Shown here: positions 36,241 to 42,816 of the stretch, piece by piece | How the letters are laid out: every line of letters starts with the position of its first letter | Position numbering within the stretch: the stretch's first letter is position 1 | NCBI RefSeq assembly: GCF_022701255.1 | Contig: NZ_CP031705.1 | Span: forward strand, 1,302,001 to 1,366,000 | Length of the DNA stretch: 64,000 nt | DNA from: Microcoleus vaginatus HSN003 | Lineage (GTDB): Bacteria > Cyanobacteriota > Cyanobacteriia > Cyanobacteriales > Microcoleaceae | Direction of reading: 5' to 3' | Notes under the pieces: model-generated | What the model saw: the letters and a program-made list of their open reading frames with translations, nothing else | The model's database searches: none | What the model was told of the DNA's origin: nothing | Program-made: the position numbers and the translations under genes

Positions 36241-36891
36241 AAAAAAAGTTCGGTAAGTGGGAAACGAGCGAGACTTTAGTCCTGAGAGGAAAACGACCCG
36301 GCGATTTCAATCGCCTTGAATCCCCTTTCGGGGTTGGAGAGGTATGGTTGCCTCTCCGGTGAGGTATGGCTACCTCAATCTCCCTTTCGGGGTAATGTTC
36401 GCTTGGCCAATGTTATAAAGGCTTGTTCGGCTTACAGCACTGTTTCAGGGACTTTAAAACTGTTTAACTGTAAACAACAGAGCGGAAAACTAGCGTCGCA
36501 TTCACCGGTGTTATGACCTAAATAGCGTAGTCAGCTAAGACTTAGGCGGGTCAGTACAGCTTGCTTGATCTCTCTTACAAGCTCAGTAGCTTTAGCCCTG
36601 AGTTACTGACAGGAGTTTAAAGTGTTAATTACTCGATCGCCCCATCAAGCCTAATTGTAAAATATTCTCAGCATTTAACACCGAATTAGCTGCGAGCGAT
36701 AAGATTAGAAATCGGGCATTTTGTCGCAATAAATCACATTGACCCCGCCCAAAAACGGATACAAGCCCCCGACACTCAGTCAGGGTCGATCCCCAAATTT
36801 TAGACTCTAGTTCCTGCTCCCCGATTAATCTCTGGAGTCAATCTAAAATCTAAAATCTAAAATCTAAAATAGGCTAACTGGAGACCAAAAA
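36241..36891. other. Long spacer before the second pilT
   Basis: No gene is seen. It holds the hairpin cluster at 36319-36396, a stem AGCTTG...CAAGCT at about 36559-36584 with neighbouring dyads (possible structured leader or small RNA; unproven), and a repeat of four TCTAAAA heptads (36842-36870) 22 bases before the pilT2 start. A promoter was not clear. Confidence 0.45.
36319..36396. repeat. Cluster of four adjacent hairpins
   Basis: In order: AATCCCC-TTTC-GGGGTT (36319-36335), GGAGAGG-TATGGTTG-CCTCTCC (36336-36357), GAGGTA-TGGC-TACCTC (36361-36376) and TCCCTTTCGGGG (36381-36392). The units come as A B then B' A', so the cluster is itself roughly symmetric. Confidence 0.75.
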
Positions 36892-42291: not shown

Positions 42292-42331
42292 AAAAAGTCT
42301 GAAGCTGGAAAATTCCAACTTCAGACTTTTA
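42292..42331. terminator. Bidirectional terminator between GT2 and tRNA-Asn
   Basis: AAAAGTCTGAAG, loop of about 16 bases (with a TTGGAA/TTCCAA-like inner stem), CTTCAGACTTTT. A-rich on one side and T-rich on the other, it can serve both converging genes. Confidence 0.8.
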
Positions 42332-42335
42332 CTAA

Positions 42336-42709
42336 CTCCCCGGGTAGGATTTGAACCTACGACCAATCGGTTACACTTATCCCAACGTTTCCGAAGGGCG
42401 CGGACTATTTCATCATCCCTACAAATCATGTTTGTGATCTGTCGTCGGATGTCGGGCGCTATGAGATTTATTGGTTAGGCTCCTCATCTCTAGTCTCTGC
42501 ACCTTCCTGGGTACTTGCGATCGTAACCGCTGCCTTTCGCCAGACTTGGCTCAAGATTGCCGCCACCCAAAGTGCTGCGGTTTCCTTGAATTCACCCGAT
42601 TTTTCAGTATCCGTTACCGGATAGAGCTGCTATGTCACTAGGGCTTTTGGTTGATGCCAAAGGCTTGCATTCATTACAGCCGACCGCTCTGCCACTGAGC
42701 TACCGAGGA
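42336..42709 (-). tRNA. trnN-GUU: tRNA-Asn (GUU), interrupted by a group I intron
   Basis: On the minus strand the 5' exon (42709-42676, 34 nt) reads TCCTCGGTAGCTCAGTGGCA then GAGCGGTCGGCTGT. The 3' exon (42373-42336, 38 nt) reads TAACCGATTGGTCGTAGG then TTCAAATCCTACCCGGGGAG. Joined, they give a 72-nt tRNA with acceptor TCCTCGG/CCGGGGA, D stem GCTC/GAGC, anticodon stem GTCGG/CCGAT, loop CTGTTAA (anticodon GUU, Asn), and T stem CGTAGG-type pairing with TTCAAAT loop. CCA is not encoded. The intron falls between anticodon positions 35 and 36. Confidence 0.93.
42374..42675 (-). ncRNA. Group I intron (IC3-like) in the tRNA-Asn anticodon
   Basis: This 302-nt insertion begins after U of the 5' exon and ends in G, the group I rule. 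P1 can form between exon GGCTGT and intron GCAAGCC (42662-42668) with a U-G pair at the splice site and one bulged A. Core segments match the cyanobacterial tRNA-Leu intron as I remember it: GGCAATCTTGAGCCAAG (42543-42561 region), GGAAGGTGCAGAGACTAG (42490-42508 region) and AATAGTCC (42402-42409). There is no open frame for a homing endonuclease. Confidence 0.92.
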
Positions 42710-42816
42710 TTGGGGGTTTTTGTGACCCACAATTACTAACAATAGCTGAACTTACTCGATTTGGCAAGGCCTTTGATAAACTTTTTTTTTGTCAGACAGC
42801 GAGCGGGTTTGAGCAG

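Follow-up and report, generated by a model that had tools for sequence, protein, structure and literature searches.

Background

The closest described systems are the group I introns found in a few bacterial tRNA genes. Those of tRNA-Leu(UAA), tRNA-fMet, tRNA-Ile(CAU) and tRNA-Arg(CCU) are small ribozymes without an endonuclease, situated in the region of the anticodon loop. In the IC3 subgroup, which is the tRNA-Leu type, there is no extra helix between P7 and P3. The intron described here is likewise small and endonuclease-free, but its host is tRNA-Asn, it sits between tRNA positions 35 and 36, and it has an additional hairpin in J7/3.

By 2007, group I introns had been found in four bacterial tRNA genes, according to the available portion of PMC1995217. 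The same portion covers the introns of cyanobacterial 23S rRNA, where a LAGLIDADG protein is encoded in a structural RNA gene. This is also the case in some relatives of the present intron (the G091 and Argonema type), although there the host is a tRNA and not an rRNA. Protein-coding hosts exist as well: Nostoc punctiforme has a group I intron in its ribonucleotide reductase (RIR) gene (Meng 2007, as cited in the available part of PMC12702839).

The available portions of PMC3984707, PMC8450103, PMC5733544 and PMC4853749 do not name tRNA-Asn as an intron host. Among the matches listed in a search of open-access literature, no earlier report of a group I intron in bacterial tRNA-Asn was recognised. 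As the search covered open-access papers, priority for this host and for site 35/36, for which no earlier report was found, is not certain.

The split tRNA-Asn gene

The window is a stretch of 64,000 nucleotides from Microcoleus vaginatus HSN003 (contig NZ_CP031705.1, positions 1,302,001 to 1,366,000), whose genome is a single contig of 6,756,317 bases, 99.97% complete. On the minus strand, window positions 42336-42709 consist of two tRNA halves and a 302-nt insert; the joined gene is a 72-nt tRNA-Asn(GUU). The parts of the locus, in the direction of transcription, are:

42739-42767, minus strand: promoter-like TTGCCA-17-TATTGT upstream of trnN (9 of 12 matches, where shuffled sequences give 0.7; weak)
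42676-42709, minus strand: 5' exon of trnN, tRNA-Asn positions 1-35, ending in CUGU (ARAGORN on the joined exons)
42374-42675, minus strand: group I intron, 302 nt, last base G at 42374 (RF00028, 73.3 bits; intronless relatives)
42336-42373, minus strand: 3' exon of trnN, from U36 to discriminator G73, with no encoded CCA (ARAGORN on the joined exons)
42293-42330, minus strand: hairpin of 17 bp after trnN, resembling an intrinsic terminator (shuffled sequences give 0.6 sites; -24.8 kcal/mol, z -7.3)

The genes upstream, on the same strand, encode a YacP-like NYN protein, a protein of the Asp/Glu racemase family and an amidase.

A preliminary description of this DNA, made from its letters alone, had read it as a tRNA-Asn(GUU) gene with a group I intron in its anticodon, and had suggested a search with the Rfam Intron_gpI model. 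This search (RF00028) matches 42381-42649 on the minus strand over model positions 1-253 of 253, with 73.3 bits and an E-value of 1.1e-16 for the whole window, which excludes a chance match. Together with covariation in both intron and tRNA, and with naturally occurring intronless alleles, this supports that reading: the feature is a genuine group I intron, and it splits the anticodon of tRNA-Asn(GUU).

Run on the unspliced window, ARAGORN detects no tRNA, but it calls the joined exons tRNA-Asn(gtt) of 72 nt; the intron explains why the program is blind to a tRNA at this locus. The anatomy had been given correctly from the start: 302 nt, a U before the insert and a G at its end, with the gene split between positions 35 and 36. 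The insert indeed separates U35 from U36, and no alternative cut yields the anticodon GUU. ARAGORN returned the same tRNA-Asn(gtt) for the joined exons of 11 distinct exon pairs extracted by a sequence pattern, for the L063/L064 pair and for nine further loci. The intron of the window copy ends in G, as do those of L063/L064, which were found without the pattern; so do the copies extracted by pattern, but there the terminal G was required.

The same genome contains a second group I intron, in tRNA-Arg(CCU). This ordinary tRNA-Arg(CCU) gene, which is the one split by the intron, is distinct from another sequence at L040 (347-434, G000:C1:612547-612633), an 88-nt tRNA whose variable arm is long and whose anticodon is CCU; ARAGORN calls it tRNA-Arg. 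The window itself also holds a HEARO RNA at 36392-36610 on the minus strand (RF02033, 147 bits); according to Rfam, such RNAs are associated with an HNH endonuclease ORF.

Intron structure and probable splicing

The structure was studied in an alignment (A1) of 23 cyanobacterial copies of the trnN intron, from five families of the order. Its main elements in the window copy are:

42672-42674 with 42632-42634, minus strand: P1 extension of 3 bp, AUG with CAU (a UA pair becomes GC in 5 of 23)
42626-42630, minus strand: internal guide GCAGC, which forms P1 with exon GCUGU and puts U.G at the 5' splice site (unchanged in all 23 copies; seen as well in the minimum-energy fold)
42593-42599, minus strand: 5' strand of P3, UCGGGUG (pairs in 23 of 23, invariant)
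42491-42495, minus strand: 5' strand of P7, GACUA, the guanosine-binding helix by homology (pairs in 23 of 23, invariant)
42463-42490, minus strand: extra J7/3 hairpin, between P7 and P3, with the conserved loop AUGAGGAGCC..CCAAUAA (alignment of 23)
42452-42458, minus strand: 3' strand of P3, CGCCCGA (pairs with the 5' strand in 23 of 23)
42403-42407, minus strand: 3' strand of P7, UAGUC (pairs with the 5' strand in 23 of 23)

RNAalifold on the 23 copies pairs exon GCUGU with GCAGC at intron positions 46-50, and the minimum-energy fold of the window precursor has the same P1 plus its extension (z -3.5). The U.G pair at the 5' splice site is present in all 23 aligned cyanobacterial copies. GCAGC is also present, as read by eye, in nine copies of the Patescibacterial type discussed below. 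The preliminary description had instead placed the intron side of P1 at 42662-42668. That placement was rejected: it is not conserved, since G001 and G017 have CCAAGCC there and would lose the U.G pair.

A structure of 62 pairs accounts for the alignment. It is paired in 98.7% of 1426 cells, against 33-46% in slid controls, a comparison that flatters the structure because it was drawn partly from the same 23 sequences. Double changes occur at 13 of the 62 pairs, where shuffles have a mean of 4.7 and none of 500 reached as high; the covariation score is 0.115 versus 0.068. Further pair types are not in excess (23 versus 21.7 in shuffles, with 130 of 500 as high). The J7/3 stem has double changes at three of its five pairs and is 99.1% paired. 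P3, P7 and P8 are invariant among the 23 copies, and therefore uninformative for covariation. The group I core (P3-P8 / P4-P6, P7 and P9) is nevertheless recognisable from the full-length RF00028 match and the 62 pairs, with those three helices invariant.

The cloverleaf is paired in 100% of 483 cells. Double changes are seen at pair 31-39, which spans the intron (two sequences), and in the acceptor stem (one); further pair types number 3, versus 3.2 in shuffles. In G004 and G014, pair 31-39 has gone from G-C to A-U, and an A at exon base 31 costs one pair of P1.

The locus is very probably a single-gene tRNA-Asn(GUU) transcription unit, in which U35 is separated from U36 by a group I ribozyme whose guide-directed splicing would restore GUU. 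The intron is probably catalytic and self-splicing. The guide at intron 46-50 would pair with the last five exon bases, so that U.G lies at the splice site. P7 would bind the guanosine that attacks after U35, and the freed 5' exon would in turn attack after the terminal G of the intron. This would join U35 to U36.

Distribution in cyanobacteria

The preliminary description had proposed looking for the same insertion in relatives. A DNA search of 118 of them found full-length intron-bearing trnN in 23, and a match in two pieces in G091, owing to an insert within the intron. Judged by this locus, the nearest named relatives are Microcoleus and Tychonema strains. In the window's genus, the intron is present in 17 of 29 genomes; the exons are contiguous in 10, and no match was obtained in 2. 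Such patchy presence at a single site is as for mobile introns.

A covariance model built from the cyanobacterial trnN intron extends this to 36 of 340 sampled genomes of the order, in six families: 33 at 236 bits or more, and three more, which carry an ORF, at 128-135 bits. The intron is thus widespread in this order and present in many filamentous cyanobacteria. Nineteen of the 33 were already known; L278-L291, L298 and L299 were read, and each has its trnN interrupted at this site. Of 14 newly read split genes, 12 were recognised by pattern. The remaining two, L285 and L287, were recognised by eye, with stems that covary from one exon to the other. At E <=0.001, some match is present in 241 of the 340 genomes, but the weaker matches are other introns. 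Six at 94-128 bits, leaving aside the ORF-bearing trnN copies, lie in a ribonucleotide reductase gene, and six weaker ones that were read lie in tRNA-Arg.

Searching by exact pattern gives lower numbers. GTAACCGRYYGGTCGTAGG occurs in 7 of 386 genomes of the phylum and in 1 of 286 genomes of the phylum of L106, which undercounts because variants in the T-stem and at pair 31-39 escape it. The covariance model found more copies than the exact pattern, although its stricter filters lose weak matches. Among the named carriers from a pattern scan of 84,980 species are Microcoleus, Tychonema, Kamptonema, Lyngbya CCAP 1446/10, Phormidium LEGE 05292 and Argonema antarcticum. Of 36 pattern loci, 20 are cyanobacterial and 10, from nine genomes, are other split trnN genes. 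The remaining six (L097, L102, L105, L116, L117 and L127) were dropped as chance matches or intact tRNA.

A phage or plasmid as the vehicle of the intron was considered and rejected. The exact pattern has 0 matches in viral contigs, and there was no plasmid match. None of 65 phage records covers 80% of the query; the ten best of these match only the 3' exon (cyanophage tRNA-Asn) or the core of a Vibrio phage intron.

Empty sites, and possible gain and loss

Intronless alleles are intact. In the sister pair G001 and G008, the trnN of intronless G008 shows no difference at all from the joined exons of G001. The upstream flanks of the two are identical at 595 of 600 positions, while the downstream flanks diverge fast (52 of 60, 170 of 300). 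In intronless G003, G026, G018, G025 and G011, trnN matches the joined exons of the window exactly; G022 differs by one base, and G010, G023 and G027 by four or five.

In a tree of 36 genomes built from the neighbouring NYN gene, the intronless members of the genus occupy three separate places, with four changes overall; its long branches G105 and G038 are possibly wrongly joined, and L104, which has no such neighbour in its stretch, is absent. A single gain that predates the genus, followed by three or more precise losses, would fit this. Intronless alleles may also have replaced split ones, above all in G010, G023 and G027.

Endonucleases in related copies

The preliminary description had noted that the intron has no endonuclease gene. 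This holds for the window copy, but not for at least three relatives. Protein searches found a LAGLIDADG_2 ORF between P7 and P3 in G091, G510 and G488, all of one genus. The ORF of G091, the only one that was also searched with PF03161 (LAGLIDADG_2), has 215 aa and matches with an E-value of 1.4e-25. A Parcubacterium (L110) has a 120-aa ORF in the P1 loop that scores 20.9 bits with PF01844 (HNH), below the cut-off of 21.4, and L107 has what appears by eye to be a shortened version of it.

These LAGLIDADG_2 and HNH-like ORFs suggest that the element moves, or once moved, by homing into trnN. The window copy may have lost its homing endonuclease or may never have had one.

The J7/3 hairpin occupies the place of the LAGLIDADG ORF in copies of the G091 and Argonema type. 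The idea that the hairpin is the scar of a lost ORF is unsupported, because its loop is conserved in the aligned cyanobacterial trnN copies without an endonuclease gene, and a similar hairpin exists in reductase introns.

LAGLIDADG_2 relatives of the trnN endonuclease, 35-41% identical, were also seen in other cyanobacteria (L168-L179). Eight such loci were scanned, and L178 alone has a nearby group I intron that exceeds the cut-off.

Split tRNA-Asn genes outside the cyanobacteria

In nine genomes not labelled as cyanobacteria, the scan of 84,980 species found trnN split at the same 35/36 site. Their labels include four of the Parcubacteria group, one Nealsonbacteria and one Berkelbacteria, making six from Patescibacteria groups. 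RF00028 scores above its cut-off in 7 of 10 loci from the nine genomes plus the genome of L096; L101 is below it, at 44.1 bits. L121 is cut by a contig end, and the 5' exon of L108 falls outside the fetched stretch. The acceptor stems differ from the cyanobacterial ones and yet pair, which speaks against contamination. The available part of PMC8172020 states that some tRNAs of circularised genomes, mostly of Patescibacteria, have group I introns; in that part the host tRNAs are not named.

It is an even question whether these introns are independent insertions at the same target, with no recent common descent. Most differ in J7/3, where two hairpins are seen by eye instead of one, and the HNH-like ORF of L110 is an endonuclease of another type. 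A shared target also constrains the guide sequence, and this makes unrelated introns look alike. Conversely, the insertion site is exactly identical, and most share a similar GATGATGANATAGTCC segment, but an almost identical one is found in the Vibrio phage intron. An nhmmer profile of the cyanobacterial introns, which takes no account of structure, ranks six of the nine above every tRNA-Leu and tRNA-Arg intron compared; the other three mingle with tRNA-Leu.

Trees neither show nor reject a single origin. All trnN introns form one group with support 49/60 in a tree from one alignment, in which 14 rows of other introns used Rfam match limits rather than mapped intron ends. This group was neither recovered from nor rejected by a second alignment (AU p 0.21). 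That alignment had no partial rows from the three copies with an ORF and one match per locus, and its guide and J7/3 columns had been removed. Kinship of the cyanobacterial and Patescibacterial-type introns is thus uncertain.

A wider reading can be put forward tentatively, and with more doubt than belief. A group I lineage specific to trnN, at times carrying endonucleases of unrelated types (LAGLIDADG or HNH), may have moved between Cyanobacteria and Patescibacteria, each time by way of the 35/36 site, making asparagine decoding wholly dependent on a ribozyme in some hosts.

Kinship with other group I introns

It seems unlikely that the trnN intron is an ordinary IC3 tRNA intron, transposed from tRNA-Leu(UAA) or tRNA-Arg(CCU) of the same cells. 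With the covariance model of the cyanobacterial trnN intron, six reductase introns score 94-128 bits, a Vibrio phage terminase intron 115.7, and seven of the nine Patescibacterial-type introns 93-118. Against this, seven tRNA-Arg introns score 38-82 and six tRNA-Leu introns 36-54, although the other two of the nine (78.0 and 60.3) are within the tRNA-Arg range. Three other introns score 51-62; the scores of two introns without a named host (61.9 and 56.1 bits) likewise fall among those of tRNA-Arg. In favour of such a transposition, the R segment GUGCAGAGACU is common to trnN and tRNA-Leu introns, and one clade of trnN, tRNA-Arg and tRNA-Leu introns is not rejected by the AU test (p 0.37). A clade of trnN and reductase introns alone is rejected (p 0.014).

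The J7/3 extension has a similarly mixed distribution. Besides the present intron it occurs in six of eight tRNA-Arg introns (L300-L305), and it is absent from seven tRNA-Leu introns, L002 and L164. The hairpin with the CAAUAA motif is found in 6 of 6 reductase introns, 1 of 8 tRNA-Arg introns and 0 of 7 tRNA-Leu introns. Among the tRNA-Arg(CCU) introns L300-L305, CAATAA is seen only in L300. The core had initially been likened to that of the IC3 intron of tRNA-Leu. A general likeness stands, but it is weakened by the extra hairpin, and by a ranking that puts reductase, phage terminase and most Patescibacterial-type introns above all tRNA-Leu and tRNA-Arg introns compared.

The introns of B12-dependent ribonucleotide reductase are the highest-scoring relatives outside trnN identified in the order. 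In the six copies compared from this order, they differ from the trnN intron in having a protein-coding host and a different guide. For L297 the host was confirmed, as TIGR02505 positions 117-378 and 379-690 flank the intron. The intron in the terminase large subunit gene of Vibrio phage 11895-B1 (RF00028, 83.6 bits) has a 68-nt core that is 82.6% identical to that of the trnN intron, but its host is a phage protein gene and its J7/3 is another. By Rfam, this phage (L261) has group I introns at 238-517 and 1161-1412, one of them ahead of the joined terminase gene and the other inside it.

Other tRNA-Asn genes and possible host dependence

The genome of the window has one other tRNA-Asn(GUU) gene, divergent and contiguous, at about G000:C1:2532432-2532506. 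It is part of an array of about 29 tRNA genes (L033, G000:C1:2526500-2536500). The preliminary description had named an intact second trnN, combined with a lack of spliced product from this locus, as a point against its own reading. A second gene does exist, but as a divergent copy of the array type. The statement that the tRNA is non-functional without splicing is right for this gene; given the array copy, splicing may not be essential in the strain.

The L033 array, which holds the sole contiguous tRNA-Asn(GUU) found in the genome, resembles the translation-stress array of Anabaena. According to the available part of PMC10272220, that array of 26 tRNA genes stays silent under standard culture conditions, and translational stress induces it.

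With a loose pattern, a candidate of the array type was found in all nine intron-bearing genomes of the genus that were given this pattern, and also in G037, G042, G047 and G091. ARAGORN confirmed an array-type tRNA-Asn(GUU) in G000, G012, G019 and G037. The loose pattern found no other tRNA-Asn copy in G113, G067 and G105, nor in the nine Patescibacterial-type genomes.

For G105 and G113, ARAGORN was run on the RF00005 matches other than the split trnN; it detected 37 and 46 distinct tRNAs, none of them with GTT. A living cell there should therefore need the split gene. These sets rest on the best 150 of 231 and the best 150 of 461 candidates, and tRNA-Ile(GAU) and tRNA-Ala(UGC) are likewise absent from them, so that a tRNA could have been missed. 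In G113, ARAGORN also calls a tRNA-Asn(AUU) at L258 1787-1858, possibly a decayed array gene.

That the locus is a dead pseudogene, whose intron no longer splices while the contiguous array gene decodes asparagine codons, is very improbable given the pairing of intron and cloverleaf across 23 copies from five families, the lack of a further tRNA-Asn by loose pattern in G105, G113 and G067, the detected tRNA sets of the first two, and the silence in standard culture of the comparable Anabaena array.

Significance

Few bacterial tRNA genes are recorded as having self-splicing introns, and within the scope of the open-access literature the split trnN adds a host and a site to them. The split trnN also comes with a natural test set. 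This set contains the sisters G001 and G008, with and without the intron, and genomes in which the split gene is the sole tRNA-Asn(GUU) detected. It further includes copies with endonucleases of two kinds, and Patescibacteria with an insert at the same site. With these, intron loss, homing and the dependence of the host on splicing become testable.
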